Virus record (IMG/VR): IMGVR_UViG_3300042312_000252
Span: 1 to 27,883 of that record
Strand: one strand, 5' to 3'
DNA length: 27,883 nt
Source of the DNA: a virus
Shown here: positions 1,827-23,847 of the stretch, piece by piece
Layout of the letters: every line of letters begins with the position of its first letter
Numbering within the stretch: the first letter of the stretch is position 1
Notes under the pieces: model-generated
Told to the model about the DNA's origin: nothing
What the model saw: only the letters and a program-made list of their open reading frames with translations
Databases searched by the model: none
Position numbers and translations under genes: made by a program

Positions 1827-2069
1827 TCAGCTCCCGTTGATCAGTGTCCGTTCGGTCACTTCCGCGCCAGTCTCGGCGGCCAGTGCCAGCAGGCGCCGAT
1901 GATACCGCGATGGGACGTTGCCTGCACCGTTGTCGGACTGCTGCCAGCGCAGGACGGTGGACGGGTGGACCTTGAGGCGGCGGGCGATGCCACGGATCGA
2001 GAGGCCCGCGCGCGCGAACGCTGCGATGGTCTCGACGGCGGGTGTCTTGGGTGCTGGTTTCGTGGTCAT
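1827..2069 (-). CDS. small helix-turn-helix DNA-binding regulator
   Basis: The 80-residue protein carries a clear helix-turn-helix at about residues 22-44 (GLSIRGIARRLKVHPSTVLRW), preceded by a helix and followed by a short tail. There is no dimerisation or protease domain, so it is Cro-sized rather than CI-sized. It is the first gene of the leftward unit and faces the exonuclease gene across a promoter/operator region, the usual place for a phage switch regulator. Its -10 box ends only six bases before the ATG, so the mRNA should be leaderless or nearly so, like lambda cI from PRM. It is the obvious candidate to bind GTTGC-N7-GCAAC, but that link is inference. Confidence 0.8.
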   Translation of the reverse strand: MTTKPAPKTPAVETIAAFARAGLSIRGIARRLKVHPSTVLRWQQSDNGAGNVPSRYHRRLLALAAETGAEVTERTLINGS

Positions 2070-2075
2070 GGTCTG

Positions 2076-2104
2076 AGCATAACGGCCGGCGCGGCACGTT
2101 GCAA
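2076..2104 (-). promoter_or_regulatory. leftward promoter for the HTH gene and lysis cassette
   Basis: On the minus strand, TTGCAA (2104-2099) and TATGCT (2081-2076) are separated by 17 bases. Only six bases lie between the -10 box and the ATG at 2069, so the predicted start point falls on or next to the start codon. Confidence 0.6.
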
Positions 2105-2114
2105 GCCGGGCAAC
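2098..2114. promoter_or_regulatory. operator-like inverted repeat GTTGC-N7-GCAAC, copy 1
   Basis: This is a perfect 5-base inverted repeat with a 7-base spacer. It contains the -35 box of the leftward promoter, so a bound protein would block it. The same motif recurs at 2142, 4530 and 22585, and with one mismatch at 18067. Confidence 0.65.
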
Positions 2115-2141
2115 GCGGCGGGAGAAATGTTGCGCGAGGGT

Positions 2142-2171
2142 GTTGCAATCCTCGCAACGCTGCGTTACAGT
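2142..2171 (+). promoter_or_regulatory. rightward early promoter with operator copy 2
   Basis: The -35 box TTGCAA (2143-2148), a 17-base spacer and the -10 box TACAGT (2166-2171) lie upstream of the exonuclease gene. The inverted repeat GTTGC-N7-GCAAC at 2142-2158 covers the -35 box and half of the spacer. A lone half-site GTTGC lies at 2129-2133. The resulting leader would be about 20 bases long. Confidence 0.7.
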
Positions 2172-2197
2172 GGGACACCACTCAGCGAGAGCCAGCC

Positions 2198-3202
2198 ATG
2201 AACCGCGAATTCATCCTCCCCCGCGACGAACAGCACTGGCACGCACTGCGCGCCCAGGATCTGACCAGCACGGATATTGCCGCACTGCTCGGCCTGTCGC
2301 CCTACGCGACCGCGATCGACGTGTGGCACAACAAGCGCGACGGGGTGGCGGCATCGATTGCCGACAATGAGCGGATGAAGTGGGGGCGGCGGCTGGAATC
2401 CGTCGTGGCCTACGGGATCGGCGAAGATCAGAGCTGGCAGGTCAACCCGTTTGAGGAATACGGCAGGCTGCCCGAGCATCGCGTCGGATCGTCTTTCGAT
2501 TTCGTCGTGCACGATCCTGCAGGCGGCTTCATCCTAGAAATCAAAACCGTAGACGCCCTAGCCTACCGACAAGGCTGGACCGTCGAAGATGACTTCATCG
2601 AAGCCCCCGCACACATCGAGCTGCAGCTACAGCACCAGCTTCTGGTGTCCGGACTGCGCGTCGGTTACATCGGCGCCTTGATCGGCGGAAACCGCGTCGA
2701 GCTGCTGCGGCGCGAGGCTGACGATGCGGTTCATGCGGCGATCCTGCAGCGGGCAGGCCAGTTCTGGCAGTCGATCGAAGCCGGCACGCCGCCGCCCGTC
2801 GTCACTGCCGACGATGCGCGCGCCTACATCCGCCGCCAAGATCATGCGGAGCCGGGCAGGCTGCTGGACGTGCGCGGCGGCCATAGCGTTGGCAGGCTGA
2901 TCGAGCAGTATCAGGACGCCAAGCGTGCTGCCGCCGCTGCTACCGACCTTGCCGATATCCTCAAGGCAGAACTGCTAGCCCGCATCGGCGACGCCGAGCG
3001 CGTCATGTGGGACGGCGGCACGATTTCGTGCGGCTACACCGCCGGCAGTGCCGGCACCACCATCACCGCCGACATGATCGGCACCACCATCACCGCCGAC
3101 ATGATCGGCACCACCATCACCGCCGACATGATCGGCACCACCATCGGGGCGCGCGCTGGCTATAGGCAGTTCCGAGTCAACAGCAAGAGGAAAACCCCGT
3201 GA
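2198..3202 (+). CDS. YqaJ/lambda-type exonuclease
   Basis: The 334-residue protein matches the YqaJ viral recombinase (lambda exonuclease) family. These enzymes resect double-stranded DNA 5' to 3' to give a single strand for an annealing protein. The N-terminus has the family pattern W-x-x-L-R...S-T-D-I-A-A-L-L-G-L-S-P-Y. Candidate active-site residues are Glu67 (RRLES), Asp101 (SSFDF) and Glu114/Lys116 (LEIK), as in PD-(D/E)XK nucleases. The ATG at 2198 follows the early promoter; the frame runs further upstream, but only over the control region. The RecT gene lies two genes downstream. Oddly, the C-terminus contains three tandem copies of GTTITADMI plus a partial fourth. Confidence 0.9.
   Translation: MNREFILPRDEQHWHALRAQDLTSTDIAALLGLSPYATAIDVWHNKRDGVAASIADNERMKWGRRLESVVAYGIGEDQSWQVNPFEEYGRLPEHRVGSSFDFVVHDPAGGFILEIKTVDALAYRQGWTVEDDFIEAPAHIELQLQHQLLVSGLRVGYIGALIGGNRVELLRREADDAVHAAILQRAGQFWQSIEAGTPPPVVTADDARAYIRRQDHAEPGRLLDVRGGHSVGRLIEQYQDAKRAAAAATDLADILKAELLARIGDAERVMWDGGTISCGYTAGSAGTTITADMIGTTITADMIGTTITADMIGTTIGARAGYRQFRVNSKRKTP
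3053..3147 (+). repeat. 27-base tandem repeat, 3 copies plus 14 bases, inside the exonuclease
   Basis: Identical 27-base units start at 3053, 3080 and 3107, followed by the first 12 bases of a fourth (ggcaccaccatc) from 3134. The unit is a multiple of three and encodes GTTITADMI, so copy-number change keeps the frame. The copies are identical even at third codon positions, which points to recent slippage or recombination. Confidence 0.95.
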
Positions 3203-15900: not shown

Positions 15901-17271
15901 AACGACAGGCCCGCCAAGGTCTGCGGCCTGTTGACGCAAAAGACGATTAAGATCCGACGCGCCTTTAATCGAACGCTGCTGCTGAGTCGCGGCCGCGCGC
16001 GTGGCGTCGTCGATCGCTTTCTGCGCGTCTCGGGTTGCTTTCGCCCTGTCACGCTGCGCCGATGCCGCCCCTCGGGCTGAGTCAGCCTCTGCGGCCTGCT
16101 CTTCGCGCATGCGGCGCAGGGCTTCCAACAGCGCGTTCGTCGCCGTGGAATTCTCACCCGTCGCGGCGGTGCCTTCGGTCTGCGCGCCAGCGCGGTTCTG
16201 CTCTGCGATGGCGTTTTCTTCGGCGGCTTGCGTCGCAAGCCTAAGGTTTTCTTCCAGCCGTTCAAGTTCGGCCAAGTTTTCATCAAGAGACCCAACAAAC
16301 AGACGGGCTAAAGGACCTCCGTTCATAGCCGTATCGACTTGGCGACGCTGGAACTCTATTTCATCTTGCTGCCTAGCCAGGTCGCCAAAATTGGCACCAC
16401 CTACCCGTGACGCGGCTTCCTCTGCGACAAACCTAGTGACGTTTCCGATCTCTGCAACCAGCTCTGCCACCTTGATCGTGGCATTCGCCGCGCCTTCAAT
16501 GATGGCCCCGAAGCCGTCGCGGAACGCATCGGACTGCAGCACCGCAGCCATTTCCGTCAGTTTGGGAAGCAGGCCAATGCCGATTTGCGTCGCAGCGCCC
16601 TGCATGCCCGCCGTCACGCGGTCTATCGCGTCATTGAACTCACCGGCCTGTTCGGCTGCCGTCTGGTCGAACGTCAGGCCCAAGGCTTCGGCCTCGCGCT
16701 GCAGCTCTGCAATCCCCTCGCTGCCACGCGACAGCAGCGGAATCAGCTGCGCGCCGCTGCGGCCGAACAGGTCAAGCGCCAGTTTCGATTTTTCCGCGCC
16801 GTTCGGCAGCTGCGCGAACACGTCCGCAATGTCAAGAAGCAGGCCCTCGGCGTCGCGCAGGCTGCCGTCTGCGTTCGTGGTGGATACGCCGATAGCTTTG
16901 AATGATTGCGCTAAAACCTTGTTTCCTGACGTTGCGTCGCCAGCGTTTTTGATAAGCCTGAGCAAGCCGCCCTGCAGCTGCTCAAGCGACGCATCCGACA
17001 GCTTGGCGGCCCACTCCAGGCCCGACAGAGCCTCGGTCGCAATGCCGATCCGGCTGGCCGCCTCGCCGATCTGGTCCATGCGGTTGATGGCGTTACGCAG
17101 CGCCACAGCCGCCGCCGTTGCCCCGGCAGCCAACGCCGCGCCAATCGCAGCGCCGGCTTTCTTCGCGGCGTCTTCGATGTTCCCCATGCGGTCCCGGACG
17201 GTCTGTTCCGCCCGCTTGAACTCGCTGTTGAACTGCGCGGTATTGGCTGCAAGGTCAACGGTGATTTTCAT
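12964..17271 (-). CDS. tape measure protein
   Basis: This is the largest gene in the window: 1435 residues, mostly helical, Ala/Gln/Glu/Arg-rich with long coiled coils. Tape measure proteins set tail length, and about 0.15 nm per residue would give roughly a 215 nm tail. The N-terminus (MKITVDLAANTAQFNSEFKRAEQTV) is typical. A hydrophobic stretch around residues 620-660 (AFARMAAMAAAVATLVGNIGG) could insert in the host membrane during DNA entry. A Gly-rich linker (GGGGGPVGGGGG) lies near residue 1250. It follows the tail chaperones with an ATGA overlap, the standard order. A less GC-rich patch lies around 16240-16460. Confidence 0.93.
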   Translation of the reverse strand: MKITVDLAANTAQFNSEFKRAEQTVRDRMGNIEDAAKKAGAAIGAALAAGATAAAVALRNAINRMDQIGEAASRIGIATEALSGLEWAAKLSDASLEQLQGGLLRLIKNAGDATSGNKVLAQSFKAIGVSTTNADGSLRDAEGLLLDIADVFAQLPNGAEKSKLALDLFGRSGAQLIPLLSRGSEGIAELQREAEALGLTFDQTAAEQAGEFNDAIDRVTAGMQGAATQIGIGLLPKLTEMAAVLQSDAFRDGFGAIIEGAANATIKVAELVAEIGNVTRFVAEEAASRVGGANFGDLARQQDEIEFQRRQVDTAMNGGPLARLFVGSLDENLAELERLEENLRLATQAAEENAIAEQNRAGAQTEGTAATGENSTATNALLEALRRMREEQAAEADSARGAASAQRDRAKATRDAQKAIDDATRAAATQQQRSIKGASDLNRLLRQQAADLGGPVVQAMQRYQDELEYVARLQADMEQAGPISPEQAAMLEQARENAKALWEEHTKGIESAEEAAERYLRDLVDYLNDSPLKRMAEDAELLGQALKEALAGKGKIAAEELQAALNKVQHSMSVAMITSTQEGLRSIQSMTQSGSKAFAAMQVAIDALSVAQAISAVLNQGNGDPYTAFARMAAMAAAVATLVGNIGGNFGGSNGFTDTAADRQATQGRGTVLGDAEAQSASIQNALDITADATSQLVGLNRGMLQALQALQGGLDRAGGMLARGAGQAGFTEIGGSFSFRDNFLGGALSFAPLDPLGILGGSSQITDQGLAIGGGSLGNVGVQAYQEQQYRRWRFGSRRTREEMAPVDDAVESQFQLIIDSIVETVRRGAEALGLLPADVQARLDAFTLEVTRISLKDLSAEEQQAELLAVFSSIFDNIAGDVVPFIEQFQRVGEGLGETLVRVATGVQVTQEGLRRLGFSLDELDPERFAQVSEALIEMVGGLDAFIEGMQSFMDAFAPEAYRFQLLQEDLTSALEQAGLVLPATRDGMWALMQSLDATTEAGREQIATLLRLAGTADQYYRMIEDGAGTELEDRRDHLQELLEANREYYDFAERIAQQFLGSVGSELNNSLVDIEREYRNNIRTANELARAAGMSGAAVQELSRIELIAARRRAEAIRLTMESALENAAGLGLTEMSQLDAQIAALQDTGGQLGDALGGVSDAFDEAAQRAKNTIDLLIGDLSPLRDQQKLQIALEGLRAGTVSADQVLQIGRRLYASGADYRTLFDQVLAIQATAPIGGGGGPVGGGGGPAPVSPELLALIARRDELLADQAAEEARANALTLVEQIAELADVQTLTFEEVAASLGISLTDLAERLGVDSETLTMMLQRQADEAAEEREAVLEIPERFSDAVQPLQAELETLNELVRLQGEQLAQIAANTGRTAGAAESQAETVANRDLVDTSVAPRSTRIGTGPGGGSTGTGVFRPVLAL

Positions 17272-17953
17272 TGCAGCTTGAGTCCCAAGGCGGCCATGGT
17301 TTTCAGCTCGTCCGGAGTGTACCGGCTGGCGTCGATTCTACGCTCCCACACGTCCCGAAACAGCATGAAATCCGACACTTTCGGGCGCGGCTTGCCCTTC
17401 GGCGTCTTGCTGCCAGCCCATAGCGCCGTTTGCTGCGCGGCTGCGACTTCGCACCGGTCCTCCGCTGGCGGCTCGCGTGCCAGGAATGTCTGCATCAGGT
17501 CAACCGACCATTGCGGCCACTGCATGACCTCGTGCAGCGGCGCCCGGAGCTGCGCGGCCATGCGGCACAGCGCGCGCAGCGAGGGACGGTCGGTTAGGAG
17601 TTTCCCAGCTTCTCCGGGTCGGCCGGGCTGTTGACTTCCTTCGCGACCTGAAACAGCTGGTCAACCAGACGCGCCGGCAGCTTGCCGACTTCGCCGTCAG
17701 CAAACACGCGCTTGCCGTCCTCGTCGCAGATGGCGAAGCGCACCATCATGTGCTTGGCACGCTCGGACAGCTGCAGGTCGATCTCGACCGATGCGCCGCC
17801 CGCGCCGCCCGTGACTTTCTGGCCGATCAAGAGTTGCTGCTGTTCGCCGGCCGTGATCTGGCGCACGAACACGCGCACGTCCTCGCCGTCGACCGTGACG
17901 GTTCGCGCTGCGGGAGTGTTGGTGTTTGCCAGGACTTCGGAGAGTGATTTCAT
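17268..17953 (-). CDS. tail assembly chaperone, frameshifted GT product
   Basis: A -1 slip on GGGAAAC at 17606-17600 would join the first 118 residues of the G-type chaperone to a second frame ending at 17268, about 228 residues in total. The second frame is open across the junction (LLTDRPSLRALCRMAAQLRAPLHEV...) and reads like the T part of such chaperones. G and GT normally bind the tape measure and guide tail-tube assembly in a fixed ratio, and the tape measure is the next gene. An independent start at the ATG at 17561 (97 residues) is possible but lacks a good ribosome site. Confidence 0.8.
17594..17953 (-). CDS. tail assembly chaperone, G-type
   Basis: The 119-residue protein (MKSLSEVLANTNTPAARTVTVDGEDVRVFVRQITAGEQQQLL...) sits between tail tube and tape measure, the conserved place of the lambda G-type chaperone, and carries the slippery site at its 3' end. 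It is an alpha/beta soluble protein that is not expected in the mature virion. GAGG lies just before its ATG. The specific chaperone family cannot be named from sequence alone, but position, size and frameshift together are strong. Confidence 0.85.
   Translation of the reverse strand: MKSLSEVLANTNTPAARTVTVDGEDVRVFVRQITAGEQQQLLIGQKVTGGAGGASVEIDLQLSERAKHMMVRFAICDEDGKRVFADGEVGKLPARLVDQLFQVAKEVNSPADPEKLGNS
17600..17606 (-). other. -1 ribosomal frameshift slippery site GGGAAAC
   Basis: In the G frame the sequence reads CTG GGA AAC TCC TAA, so G-GGA-AAC fits the X-XXY-YYZ pattern exactly, and the zero-frame stop follows one codon later. Lambda's G/T site, GGGAAAG, differs only in the last base. 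The -1 frame stays open to 17268. Confidence 0.88.
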
Positions 17954-19989: not shown

Positions 19990-20339
19990 ACGCCAAGCTC
20001 CGTGCGGTACGGCATCAGCAGCGTTTCAGCAGCGGCGCGCATGCGCGGGATGTCGTCAGGCTTGGTGCCTTCGTACTTGGACTGAACCAAGTAATACACC
20101 GCGATCCGCACAGACGGCGCAATCGGGTCTTCACTGCTCGGCACGTCCTCGGGAATCTCGCTGCTGCTGGAATCGTACAGCGGCGGGTAATCGAGCGGCA
20201 GCGTCGCAAGCTGCGTGCGGTTCAAGAACCGCTTGGCTTCGTCCTCAGCCGCGTCAATCAACGTCTGCAGCAGCACGTCATCATCCGTGTGGATGATGCG
20301 CAGGAACGCCCGGATTTCGTCGACGGTCACGGCTGACAC
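19986..20339 (-). CDS. gp6-like head-tail connector
   Basis: The 117-residue protein matches the gp6 family: VTVDEIRAFLRIIHTDDDVLLQTLIDAAEDEAKRFLNR, then a helical end (APSVRIAVYYLVQSKYEGTKPDDIPRMRAAAETLLMPYR). It forms the ring between portal and stopper. A loop DSSSSEIPEDVPSSED is Ser-rich and acidic. Its start lies 13 bases inside the end of the glycosyltransferase gene, so the modification cassette is tightly joined to the connectors. Confidence 0.9.
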   Translation of the reverse strand: MSAVTVDEIRAFLRIIHTDDDVLLQTLIDAAEDEAKRFLNRTQLATLPLDYPPLYDSSSSEIPEDVPSSEDPIAPSVRIAVYYLVQSKYEGTKPDDIPRMRAAAETLLMPYRTELGV

Positions 20340-21031
20340 TGCGCGGCCTCCTGCAGGTACAGGTCGGCATCATTGCCGATCCACTCGCGCAGTATACGCC
20401 CGTCGGGGTCATACGTACCGGCGAAGTCGGCCGAATGGCCCATGCCGATTCCGCCCCGGCCCGGCAAGCCCTTGATGCCGCAGACGCGGCTGCCTGCGAA
20501 CAGGTATCGGCTGCGGTGTTTGCGCCACAGCTCTAGGTCGATGAATTTCTGATTCCGCTCGCAGGACCAGCGAAACGTGTCGATCGCAGCGCCTCGCATG
20601 GCCGTGCTGCACAGGCTGGCGTGTTGCGTGTTGGTCAGCTGGCGAGCGCGACGCTGCGGGATGTTGTAGTACCGCGCCCGCCACTCGCCGACCAGCTCGG
20701 CATTCCCCAGAGCGGTATCAGCGATCCGCAGCCAGCTCGGCGCATACCAGTCATCGTCTTCGATGATGACCAGCCGCGCGTCAGCGTCGACTTCGCGCAG
20801 GCCCGCCAGCAGGTTCCGCGCCTGCGTGTTCTGCCCGGGCTGCCACTCCGGTAGCGGGCGGATAACCTCAAGCCACCAGCCCTCACGCTGGAACGTCACC
20901 GGCTGCGCCTCCGGGCCATCGTCAACAATGATCCAGTGCACCGGGCCGGCGTAGTCCTGCCGCAGCATCAAGCGTTCGCAGATTGCCCAGGCTTCGGGGC
21001 GGGCGCCGGTGGCGGTTAGGAGCGTCAGCAT
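20327..21031 (-). CDS. glycosyltransferase family 2-like protein
   Basis: The 234-residue protein has a GT-A glycosyltransferase layout: an N-terminal Rossmann-like strand (LTLLTATGARPEAW), DDG at residues 37-39 and the metal-binding motif EDDDW at 91-95 (VIIEDDDWYAPSWL). It is shorter than most GT2 enzymes and has no membrane segment. It should move a sugar from a nucleotide-sugar donor to an acceptor. Its place within the late operon, between capsid and connectors and beside a methyltransferase, suggests that it modifies virion proteins or a surface glycan. The target is not visible in the sequence. Confidence 0.8.
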   Translation of the reverse strand: MLTLLTATGARPEAWAICERLMLRQDYAGPVHWIIVDDGPEAQPVTFQREGWWLEVIRPLPEWQPGQNTQARNLLAGLREVDADARLVIIEDDDWYAPSWLRIADTALGNAELVGEWRARYYNIPQRRARQLTNTQHASLCSTAMRGAAIDTFRWSCERNQKFIDLELWRKHRSRYLFAGSRVCGIKGLPGRGGIGMGHSADFAGTYDPDGRILREWIGNDADLYLQEAAQCQP

Positions 21032-21594
21032 GGCCGCCGCCCCACCGCAAACACATGCACCGGAATCGCCCGACGCGCCAGCGGCCCGCCGCCGTGGTCG
21101 TCAAGCGCCACATGGATCTCGCCAGCGTTCGCCGTCTCGACGTCAACGAACCCGGCATCCTCAAGCAGCAGCCGCAAACCGGACTGCGTGTAGCGGTAGA
21201 AGTCGTCCGGGAACCCATGAATCGGGAACGCCGTCAGCGTCGTGACCACGATCCAGCCGCCCGGCGCGGTGACGCGGTACAGCTCCGGCAGCGCGAGCCA
21301 GGGGCGGGCGACGTGTTCCAGAACCTCGGAGCACAGGATTCCAGAAAACCGGCCTTCCCACTCGGGCGCAAGCGCATGAATGTCCGCGACTTTATCGACC
21401 CCGTGTCCAGATTGCATGTCGATGCCGGTCCACTTCCCGCGCGCGAGGTCGCGGTTCACGATCCACCACGCGCCGGGGTTCGTCATGCGGCTGCCGACCT
21501 CCAGCACGTCGGTGCCCAGCTTGTCGGCGTGCTGTTCGATCCAGGCGCGGACGCGGCCTCGGACGCTGGTTGCGGGCATTTTACGGGCGTTCAT
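21025..21594 (-). CDS. class I SAM-dependent methyltransferase
   Basis: The 189-residue protein shows the methyltransferase fold motifs: motif I DVLEVGSR at residues 29-36, an acidic residue at the end of strand 2 (TGIDMQS, Asp59), and SEVLEH at 89-94. A later strand (GGWIVVTTLTAFP) also fits. This type often methylates small molecules or sugars. No DNA methylase motif (DPPY or PCQ) is present. It overlaps the glycosyltransferase by seven bases and its ATG overlaps the upstream stop, so the two enzymes are probably made together and may act on the same substrate. Confidence 0.87.
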   Translation of the reverse strand: MNARKMPATSVRGRVRAWIEQHADKLGTDVLEVGSRMTNPGAWWIVNRDLARGKWTGIDMQSGHGVDKVADIHALAPEWEGRFSGILCSEVLEHVARPWLALPELYRVTAPGGWIVVTTLTAFPIHGFPDDFYRYTQSGLRLLLEDAGFVDVETANAGEIHVALDDHGGGPLARRAIPVHVFAVGRRPC

Positions 21595-21785
21595 GACTTG
21601 GAACTCAGCACGAGCTGCAGCGCTTCTTCTCGCGTAAATCCTTCCGCCAAGTATGCGTCGAACTTGAGACGGATCAACCTTGCGAGGATCTTGAAGCTCT
21701 CCCTAGTAGCTTCGCTCTCGCAGTTTTCCCGCATCGCCTGAACCATATCTTCAGGGGTTGAATTGTTGGCCGTTGTCTTGCGCAA
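21591..21785 (-). CDS. 64-residue helical protein of the modification cassette
   Basis: A TTG at 21785 follows GGAGAG with good spacing and gives 64 residues. An ATG at 21746 (51 residues) is the alternative but has a weaker ribosome site. The product is helical and charged (MVQAMRENCESEATRESFKILARLIRLKFDAYLAEGF). The DNA is noticeably less GC-rich than its surroundings. It overlaps the upstream gene by 35 bases and the methyltransferase by an ATGA. No family is recognised. Confidence 0.6.
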   Translation of the reverse strand: MRKTTANNSTPEDMVQAMRENCESEATRESFKILARLIRLKFDAYLAEGFTREEALQLVLSSKS

Positions 21786-22371
21786 GTTCGCTCTCCAGTT
21801 CGCCGCGCGGAAACGCCGTCAATGCGGTGTCGCGCGTGCAGTTGATGACTTCCACTCCGGCCACAGCGCGCGCCAGCTTGGCGAACTGTGCCGGCCACTT
21901 CGGCATGCTCCCGGCGTTGCCCAGGCCGCGCGGGTGATTCCCGTGCCAATGCACTTTGCCGCCCGGCCCGTTCTTGCAGTCATAGCCCAGCAGCATGATC
22001 CGCGCAGCGCCAGCGAAGGCGGCCAAGCTGACAGCCCCTGCGCCGCTGTTCCCGTAGGGCTCCCAGCCCCTGCCCATCGTACCGAGGCTGCGCACGCCGT
22101 GGCGCTTGACGTGCTGCGAGCTGCTGCACAGGTCGCCGCGAAACACGTCCCGGACTTCCTTGATGTGCAGCGCCCACCAAGGTTCATCCATCGCGAACAG
22201 GGCGTCGGCCCACGGGGCGAGGCGAAACGACGTGTTGACCGCTATGGCGCGGCGTTCTTCGGGGGACGGCCCCGACGCTTTCCACTCACGGACTCGCTCG
22301 CAGTCGTCTGCAGTGAGGCTTGGGCCGCTGGCGATGCAGACGACGGTAGCGCCTCGCCATCGGCCGTGCCA
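21751..22371 (-). CDS. MptE/DUF115-like protein, start unclear
   Basis: The frame contains VVCIASGPSLTADDCERVREW, then NTSFRLAPWADALFAMDEPWW, GNSGAGAVSLAAFAGAARIMLLGYDCKNG and EVINCTRDTALTAFPRGELE. This resembles the MptE/DUF115-like family, which has a Rossmann-type fold related to some sialyltransferase-like proteins, and is seen in phages near sugar-modifying genes. The frame has no ATG, GTG or TTG between a GTG at 22620 and the conserved region, so 22371 is only an approximate limit. The first 130 bases lie in another frame over the upstream gene. Possible explanations are a non-standard start, a -1 slip from the upstream gene, or a sequence error. The function is probably sugar- or nucleotide-related; the substrate is unknown. 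Confidence 0.65.
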   Translation of the reverse strand, partial: WHGRWRGATVVCIASGPSLTADDCERVREWKASGPSPEERRAIAVNTSFRLAPWADALFAMDEPWWALHIKEVRDVFRGDLCSSSQHVKRHGVRSLGTMGRGWEPYGNSGAGAVSLAAFAGAARIMLLGYDCKNGPGGKVHWHGNHPRGLGNAGSMPKWPAQFAKLARAVAGVEVINCTRDTALTAFPRGELESELAQDNGQQFNP

Positions 22372-22562
22372 GGGACTTCGGGAGTCACCGGATGCTGGCG
22401 GACCACCTTTGTACCGTAGGACGACGCGACGGGCGCGGCCGGGTTCACAAGGCCCATGCGGATCAATCGGCGCGCTTCCTCTTCGTCGACTTCCAGCACC
22501 TCGCCGGCTTTCAGCAAGCCAAGGCGCCCGTGCGGAAATGCTTTGATTGGGGTGATGTGCAT
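22242..22562 (-). CDS. small capsid-downstream protein with RGRPPK tail
   Basis: The 106-residue protein starts at the ATG at 22562 after AGGGAG. The N-terminus (MHITPIKAFPHGRLGLLKAGEVLEVDEEEARRLIRMGLV) looks like a compact beta/helix domain of a type common in small proteins coded near the capsid. The rest is low-complexity, ending in KRRGRPPKNAAP, an AT-hook-like basic motif. A small domain plus flexible basic tail suits a capsid-associated protein, but no family is assigned. The 3' part is read in two frames, because the MptE-like gene overlaps it. Confidence 0.7.
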   Translation of the reverse strand: MHITPIKAFPHGRLGLLKAGEVLEVDEEEARRLIRMGLVNPAAPVASSYGTKVVRQHPVTPEVPGTADGEALPSSASPAAQASLQTTASESVSGKRRGRPPKNAAP

Positions 22563-22614: not shown

Positions 22615-22652
22615 TGCCACATGACCACACGGCAGCCATCACAGACGCAGCA

Positions 22653-22686: not shown

Positions 22687-23847
22687 TCAGGTCGTGGTGA
22701 ACTCGCCGCCGAGCATCGCGGCCGGGACGGTGACGCCCAAGCCCAGACGGACCTCGCCGAGGACGGTGACAAGGTTCGACGTGAAGTCGTTGTCCTCGTA
22801 ACCCATTTCGATCACGGTGCCCGAGCGGTTCCACACGCCGGTGGCTACGGCAGTCTGGCCGACCAGGAACGTGCCAGCAGCGATGCGCGGGGTGATGACG
22901 ACGCGGATGCCGAACGGGTTCAGGCCCGAAATCGTACCCGGCGCACCGTACAAGTACATCCCGTTCGAGCCGTTCTCACGCTCGATTTCCTGCGCGCCCC
23001 AATCGGCCGGGTTGACGTACACGGTGTCGGCGATGTAGCCGATGGCCCAAAGCTGGTACTTGGCCCGGTTGATCGCCTGAATCAGGTTGTCGCCCGAGGT
23101 CGGCGTGTAGACCGTGTAGTTGCCCGAATCCAGCAGGCCCGACAGGTTCGGCGACGTGCCGTTGCCGTTCATCAGCTGGTTGTCGACGGCGGAATCAACG
23201 CCGAAACGCAGGCGCGTCTCGATGTAGGACACGACAGCCGGCGAGTCGGCCAGCAGCTGCTTCGACACCTTCAACCAGTGCGCGACGGTCTCGATGACCA
23301 CATTGTACTTGTTGAACGTGATGGCCGACTGCGCCTTCTCCTGACCTTCGGTCTGGCCGCGCGCGTTGTTGGTGAACGACGCCTCACGCATCAGCGTGAC
23401 GGTATCGGTGCCCGTCGAAAACTGCGGCAGCGAGCGGTAGACGTTCAGCGGAAGGAACGCGCCAGGGACGACGCCGGGGATCTGGTCGAGCCACGTGGTC
23501 GTGGTGTTGTCGGCGAGAATCGTGTTCTTCAGTTCCACACGCGCACGGCTCGAACGGCCGCCGTCCTTGAACGCCTTGAACTCTTCCGACTTCACGAACT
23601 CTTCGACAGCCGAAACCGGCTTGCCCTTCGTGTCGATCGGCGCGGTCGACTTCTGCGCGATGTCGATAATCGCGGCGTTCATCTTGGCAAGCTCGCCCTT
23701 GAACTCCTCGGACAGCTTCTGAACGGCCGCCTTGGCTTCGTTCGACGCGGTGCCGGCGTCCTTGACCTGACCCTCGTACTTCTCGACAGCGGCCTCGACC
23801 GCCTTCATGTGCGCGTCAAGCGCGCCCTTCAACTCTACGGATTCCAT
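22687..23847 (-). CDS. HK97-family major capsid protein
   Basis: The 386-residue protein has the two-part layout of HK97 capsids: an N-terminal coiled coil of about 70-90 residues (delta domain, ELKGALDAHMKAVEAAVEKYEGQVKD...) that acts as internal scaffold and is removed by the protease, then the mature HK97 fold (GVVPGAFLPLNVYRSLPQF, VSKQLLADSPAVVSYIETRLRFGVDSAVDNQLMNG, NPADWGAQEIERE, GGEFTTT). The protease gene lies directly upstream. The calculated order and length are typical. Confidence 0.93.
   Translation of the reverse strand: MESVELKGALDAHMKAVEAAVEKYEGQVKDAGTASNEAKAAVQKLSEEFKGELAKMNAAIIDIAQKSTAPIDTKGKPVSAVEEFVKSEEFKAFKDGGRSSRARVELKNTILADNTTTTWLDQIPGVVPGAFLPLNVYRSLPQFSTGTDTVTLMREASFTNNARGQTEGQEKAQSAITFNKYNVVIETVAHWLKVSKQLLADSPAVVSYIETRLRFGVDSAVDNQLMNGNGTSPNLSGLLDSGNYTVYTPTSGDNLIQAINRAKYQLWAIGYIADTVYVNPADWGAQEIERENGSNGMYLYGAPGTISGLNPFGIRVVITPRIAAGTFLVGQTAVATGVWNRSGTVIEMGYEDNDFTSNLVTVLGEVRLGLGVTVPAAMLGGEFTTT

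Follow-up and report, generated by a model that had tools for sequence, protein, structure and literature searches.

A predicted programmed -1 ribosomal frameshift joins a capsid-adjacent small protein to a Maf-like glycosyltransferase in phage D3 and many related phages

Background

Phage tail assembly chaperones of the lambda G/GT type are encoded by overlapping ORFs of which the second lacks a start codon, and -1 slippage yields a major short product and a minor long one. In T7 (10A/10B), Lactobacillus phage A2 and Listeria phage PSA, a frameshift gives a minor extended head protein, and frameshifting in phage genes is already a known kind of event. The Z_ZZN frameshifting of bacterial insertion sequences takes place at tetramer sites whose efficiency depends on downstream RNA structure, according to the sections of Sharma et al. 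2014 (PMC4066793) that deal with these sites.

The locus described here lies in a virus record of 27.9 kb (hereafter the window, meaning the whole stretch of 27,883 nucleotides that was analysed), in which the minus-strand head-to-tail gene order is that of an HK97-type siphophage. It resembles lambda G/GT in having two overlapping ORFs of the structural region, a start-less second ORF, a predicted -1 join, and a short and a long product, but its genes encode a capsid-adjacent small protein and a putative glycosyltransferase (GT), and across the family the site is mostly a C_CCY tetramer with a hairpin instead of a strict heptamer. Unlike T7, A2 and PSA, where the capsid protein itself is extended, it is a small protein behind the capsid gene that gains an enzyme. 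The tetramer and its fourth-base preference are shared with the insertion sequences, as far as they are treated in those sections of PMC4066793, but those elements yield transposases, whereas the phage C_CCY is joined to a GT. A search of open-licence literature found no report of this frameshift, and within the same literature neither the gene pair, nor a phage C_CCY tetramer, nor an enzyme-adding frameshift on a capsid-adjacent protein was found.

From comparative sequence evidence we consider it highly probable (about 0.92) that programmed -1 ribosomal frameshifting joins the small ORF to the GT; this figure covers the frameshift, the capsid step discussed below lying outside it.

Results and Discussion

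Gene layout of the window

The features concerned are listed below in the order in which they are read.

22687-23847, minus strand: major capsid protein gene, directly upstream of the small ORF (Phage_capsid PF05065, E 2.2e-27)
22242-22562, minus strand: small ORF, 106 aa, ATG start, tail RGRPPKNAAP; the unshifted product
22371-22562, minus strand: the 64 codons common to both products
22368-22374, minus strand: predicted slip site C_CCU_GGC, at the conserved CCC place in the GT frame of relatives
22355-22365, minus strand: 5' arm of the predicted hairpin (GGCCGATGGCG), also coding for the G-R-W linker
22323-22333, minus strand: 3' arm of the predicted hairpin (CGCCAGCGGCC), also coding for A-S-G-P of the catalytic motif
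21751-22371, minus strand: GT domain, 206 aa plus stop, in the -1 frame and without its own start codon
21025-21594, minus strand: methyltransferase, downstream (PF13489, E 3.4e-8)
20327-21031, minus strand: GT2-like protein, downstream (PF00535, E 0.0043, below its cut-off)

The small protein has a predicted folded N-terminal domain (residues 1-41), a disordered linker and a basic RGRPPK tail. A shift at C_CCU (22374-22371) would join 64 of its residues to the 206 of the GT frame, giving a predicted fusion of 270 aa; the GT-frame stop codon is 21751-21753, and the serine codon of the SGPSLT motif has its first base at 22329. A first-pass annotation of this DNA had described a 106-residue protein with a basic tail, overlapped for about 130 bases by a second frame lying -1 to it, and both points are borne out, the overlap being 130 nt when counted from the predicted slip site at 22371 to where the small ORF ends. 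Its statement that the second frame holds no ATG, GTG or TTG between 22617 and the motif is also correct: the sole such codon before SGPSLT is a GTG at 22620, upstream of the small-ORF ATG. The methyltransferase and GT2-like genes (20327-21594) likely belong to the same modification cassette as the GT.

Two further observations concern other parts of the window. A tail assembly chaperone pair is encoded on the minus strand by ORFs 17594-17953 and 17268-17561 (Phage_TAC_13, E 3e-6, just below its cut-off), and an in-frame G_GGA_AAC at 17606-17600 (minus), just 5' of the stop of the first of them, looks from its sequence like the usual frameshift of the G/GT type and would add another -1 site to the window. 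A 386-aa ORF at 2042-3202 (plus) carries near-identical tandem copies of GTTITADMI in its C-terminal part.

Distribution of the layout among relatives

Of 50,697 phage records searched at the protein level, 68 gave a match, and scans of IMG/VR and GTDB genomes gave 157 distinct loci carrying the motif. Among these 157, 132 have an ORF that the GT overlaps in the -1 frame, including two (L096 and L178) in which the overlapping ORF is another gene and not the small ORF. Clustering at at least 90% identity over 180 nt left 101 non-redundant relatives, from which loci with identical sequence around the motif, two in which the pattern found no motif (L229, L235) and one with too little flank had been left out before counting. 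Among the 101, 65 combine a GT in the -1 frame of a small ORF with an open frame free of ATG, GTG and TTG; 12 more (class B, counted outside the 65 and including the window and a D3-like representative) do have one of these codons in the open frame, mostly far upstream; and 24 have no -1 partner and a GT start of their own. Recurrence in so many distinct sequences places the layout far beyond chance, and since the relatives are not independent, nominal chances overstate its significance.

The layout is common to phages D3 and Psp6, and the 24 GTDB bacterial loci that carry it belong to Lysobacter, Halomonas, Achromobacter, Bordetella, Alcanivorax, Delftia and others. A single-base sequence error had been one of the options first considered. 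We regard a sequencing error or decayed gene in this one contig as ruled out for practical purposes, since the same frame relation is present in about 130 distinct loci, D3, Psp6 and the bacterial loci among them, and both frames are kept open.

In eight D3-like records (D3, phPA-G, D14O, U7, D14C, 5399, FBPa47 and phi1) and in Psp6, the GT frame opens upstream of any annotated start. The annotated GT CDS begins after the motif in eight of these nine records, so that the annotated protein lacks its N-terminal part, and is missing in phi1; a joined CDS for the GT is annotated in none of the nine. The public records of D3 orf7 (L002), L003-L007 and L246-L248 annotate the GT from after the catalytic motif or omit it (KT887557).

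Several relatives depart from the common arrangement. In L069 (small ORF 2302-2556, GT from 2498) and L068 (2284-2544) the GT overlaps in the +1 frame, with its own ATG in the former and a GTG in the latter. In L245 (1580-2095 and upstream), behind a capsid-like gene, the small ORF ends before the motif region with little or no overlap, possibly an ancestral or decayed state. The GT frame extends to about 370-500 aa in L158 (2504-4003), L084 (2504-3985), L079 and L136, as if an extra downstream domain were fused; a Pfam search of two such extended frames gave no match. A search of IMG/VR with the small-ORF protein returned 49 pattern matches, none of them confirmed as a relative.

A conserved slip site in the overlap

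A CCC codon stands in the GT frame 36 to 51 nt before the motif in 58 of the 65 start-less relatives, with 55 of the counted codons at exactly -39 or -45, and such a codon reads C_CCN in frame 0. Further downstream in the GT frame CCC is rare (158 of 14605 codons, 1.1%), even among proline codons (116 of 520, against 258 CCG). The shortest open GT-frame stretch is 39 nt, and stops reach up to the CCC codon and no further; in L149, L084 and L161 a -1-frame stop lies immediately 5' of the CCC at -39.

At the 67 sites the base that follows CCC is U 43 times, C 15 times, A 6 times and G 3 times, with L010, whose site is CCCUUUC at -51, entered at a second CCC (-39). An A in the fourth position occurs mostly within C_CCA_AAG, the form of the D3 group, and AAG follows the C_CCN site in five cases, all of this form. 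The E. coli slippage data given for such tetramers by Sharma et al. 2014 (PMC4066793) rank C_CCU equal to C_CCC and above C_CCA and C_CCG, with C_CCA_AAG as the best heptamer, and the ranking of the fourth base across the relatives fits these data. A point against is that the window has a tetramer, and that for C_CCY in E. coli the same study gives low frameshifting even with a strong pseudoknot, the six tetramers yielding 0.26 to 5.6%.

In nine of ten loci examined that lack the usual CCC site, a strict heptamer stands in frame (for instance T_TTT_TTG in Psp6, A_AAG_GGC in L093 and A_AAA_AAG in L231); the tenth, L140, has neither a strict heptamer nor C_CCY, only an A_AAG further upstream. 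Strict heptamers over the 75 loci of the -1 layout number 41 in frame, against 6 and 4 in the other phases (L096 and L178 are placed with the 26 own-start loci in this count, as in those of leucine codons and frame openness below). A conserved slippery sequence is therefore found in frame 0 within the overlap, the window itself having the tetramer only. The first-pass annotation had noted that no classic slippery heptamer precedes the motif. It was right in that the window has no perfect in-frame X_XXY_YYZ, but it missed the C_CCU at 22374-22371, and the remark made the case for frameshifting look weaker than it is, the predicted site being a tetramer with a hairpin.

An upstream Shine-Dalgarno-like stimulator, an optional element of such sites, showed no enrichment over shuffles. 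T_ACA_AAG near 22410 was considered as the slip site of the window and dropped, its counterpart in L010 not being slippery and the conserved place being the CCC. Transcriptional slippage was set aside on the grounds that the run comprises only three C.

A predicted hairpin built from the catalytic motif

When 50-nt segments are folded from a point 4 nt past the first C of CCC, their energies average -21.8 kcal/mol; control segments taken at least 30 nt downstream or within the small ORF average -10.8 to -17.6 kcal/mol. Segments starting at +7 have a mean z of -2.39 relative to dinucleotide shuffles, with 56 of 67 below -1, and the predicted stem recurs at a constant place relative to the motif. 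The 24 own-start relatives give z of -0.04 to -0.58 and no common stem.

The stem was taken from single-sequence folds and then tested as a fixed helix, RNAalifold on the -39 group not having itself picked it. As a fixed helix of 11 pairs it has 87.2% (39 sequences) and 89.1% (20 sequences) of its cells paired, and in both groups its covariation score exceeds that of all 500 shuffles, GC to CG swaps included. The third base of the motif glycine codon, for instance, pairs with a linker base as GC, GU, CG or AU. Related sequences can beat shuffles without any structure, as the tool itself warns, but slid versions of the helix are all worse on both pairing and covariation, and these controls together with the own-start group make an artefact of kinship unlikely here. 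For the window, z is a modest -1.4, and the stem formed by 22365-22355 and 22333-22323 contains one A-G mismatch. A stimulatory structure is thus predicted just downstream of the site, and the hairpin predicted to drive slippage is built from codons of the enzyme's own catalytic motif.

Selection on both frames

None of the 75 loci with the -1 layout spells the motif leucine as CTG, which 12 of the 26 own-start loci do. Elsewhere in both groups no leucine codon is used more often than CTG (453 of 988 in the -1 layout); in the motif, CTG followed by A would put a TGA into frame 0. Reading on in frame 0 meets no stop between +1 and +70 in 72 of the 75 loci with the -1 layout, which is true of 4 of the 26 own-start loci. 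Lys and Arg make up on average 31% of the last 14 residues of the unshifted product; own-start loci read in that frame give 17%. As frame 0 is kept open, the unshifted small-ORF product appears to be under selection too.

A separate start for the glycosyltransferase

The third option first raised was a non-AUG start, in which the GT would be a separate protein initiated at an unusual codon inside the small ORF and aided by translational coupling. A free GT domain is possible, since relatives such as PAJU2, L064, L121, L159 and L069 have the GT with its own start; judged from their predicted genes, own-start relatives show that the enzyme can also exist unfused. The D3 group has a GTG or TTG 63 nt before the motif, and the D3-like phages alone would not exclude initiation. 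Between slip site and motif the window has a single near-cognate start, an ATC 6 nt before the serine codon of the motif that is also found in many relatives, and 6 of the 67 sites are followed by a near-cognate codon before the motif.

Against this, no near-cognate codon occurs at 61 of the 67 over the stretch that begins at the slip site and stops 9 nt short of the motif; at 27 the whole open stretch up to that point is free of one. Position -6 frequently carries CTC or CTT, and a start there would lose most of the first strand of the predicted GT fold. A GT-frame stop touches the slip site in three loci, and a separate start leaves the recurrent CCC, the in-frame heptamers and the hairpin unexplained. 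We therefore judge a separate start to be very improbable. The option of an unrecognised frameshift fusing the two proteins is, by comparison, strongly supported by the conserved site, the hairpin and the two open frames, and in this phage and many relatives including D3 the GT appears to be made only through a -1 slip near the end of the small ORF.

Predicted proteins

The GT frame matches phrog_4603 (E 3.7e-52) among PHROGs. For the domain counted from the slip site, the AlphaFold2 (AF2) model has a pLDDT of 92.7, with its first strand at residues 9-13 after the slip. The solved structure closest to this predicted fold is the Maf flagellin glycosyltransferase 5mu5 (Z 16.2, 181 residues, 3.2 A), followed by Cst-I (Z 12.7), CstII (12.0) and the archaeal M. 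jannaschii HPPK (Z 11.8), and over most of the domain the model has a Maf/GT42/MptE-like fold. In sequence the match is weak: the window GT does not reach the Pfam MptE-like cut-off (PF01973; 12.6 bits vs 34.6, E 0.12), and the best E among 11 members is 2.3e-6. Compared with Maf flagellin glycosyltransferases, GT42 sialyltransferases and MptE-like proteins, the predicted fold is alike, and the enzyme here is predicted as a fusion. Maf enzymes O-glycosylate serine and threonine of flagellin with nonulosonic acids, as described in the relevant portion of PMC11339370.

The small protein is modelled with a pLDDT of about 93 for residues 1-40 and is folded over residues 1-41 or so only. It falls below the cut-off of DUF7210 (PF23843; 24.8 bits vs 27, E 1.6e-5), which matches 5 of 44 relatives at E 0.01, and its PHROGs matches (phrog_2322 and phrog_2616) are weak. 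The folded part has similar-scoring fold relatives in ribosomal L9 N-domains, GINS and lambda gpFI (C-terminal domain), with Z of about 4.6 to 5.4; the gpFI domain (2lsm) superposes with Z 4.6 and an rmsd of 1.3 over 42 residues, a weak likeness no better than those to L9 and GINS. For the structure alignments, diverse sequences were chosen by hand (44 rows of the GT, 39 of the small protein), and a profile search of solved structures gave weak matches only.

Possible role of the N-terminal domain

The proposed course of events is as follows. Most ribosomes would translate the small ORF fully and release the 106-aa protein. In a minority, with tRNA-Pro on the CCU of C_CCU (22374-22371) and the ribosome slowed by the hairpin just downstream, this tRNA would re-pair from CCU (22373-22371) to CCC (22374-22372), one base back, and translation would continue in the GT frame. 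The rare 270-aa product would then consist of the folded N-terminal domain of the small protein and a Maf/GT42-like glycosyltransferase. The frame transition, slip site, hairpin and selection on both frames are supported by the comparisons above; slippage at a useful rate we infer.

What the N-terminal part contributes is a separate matter. The frameshift may be real and this part a mere leader that sets the dose of GT, with no role in targeting, a reading that we take seriously and place somewhat short of even odds. Own-start relatives, many of which sit after a head-completion gene, lack the N-terminal domain, the linker between the domains varies in length, and the likeness to capsid-binding gpFI is weak. 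But across loci of the -1 arrangement the N-terminal domains remain related to one another, and that of the window is predicted to be folded; the small gene stands directly behind the capsid gene in the window and in all nine relatives tested (13 had an upstream ORF listed); and pure dose control could have been served by any weak start.

The position behind the capsid gene and the weak gpFI fold match lead us to suggest, tentatively, that the N-terminal domain sits on the capsid and that the rare fusion carries the glycosyltransferase there. In lambda, the FI gene follows the capsid gene E, and the domain order in gpFI is reversed relative to the small protein. Both are small head-region proteins, and the folded part of the small protein weakly resembles the C-terminal domain of gpFI (Z 4.6), but no sequence match to gpFI was seen, and the fold match is shared with L9 and GINS. 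According to PMC4856287, lambda gpFI is bound to the prohead gpE lattice and is proposed to act by non-specific DNA binding. If the N-terminal domain binds the capsid, the fusion would bring a low dose of GT to the capsid or other virion proteins. The full picture, which we hold as possible but doubtful, would be of a common form with a basic, AT-hook-like tail acting as a gpFI-like packaging helper, and a rare form with a Maf-like GT in the tail's place, so that a capped number of enzymes is delivered through a C_CCY frameshift to glycosylate the assembling capsid in widespread phages.

Conclusions

The frameshift would be a conserved one in phages beside that of the tail chaperones, spread over phages and prophages from many Proteobacteria, the model phage D3 included. 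A tetramer slip site escapes heptamer-based searches, and the signal has been overlooked in databases. It would become a testable question in phage D3 whether heads are glycosylated by an enzyme that is anchored to the capsid and supplied in an amount governed by ribosome slippage.
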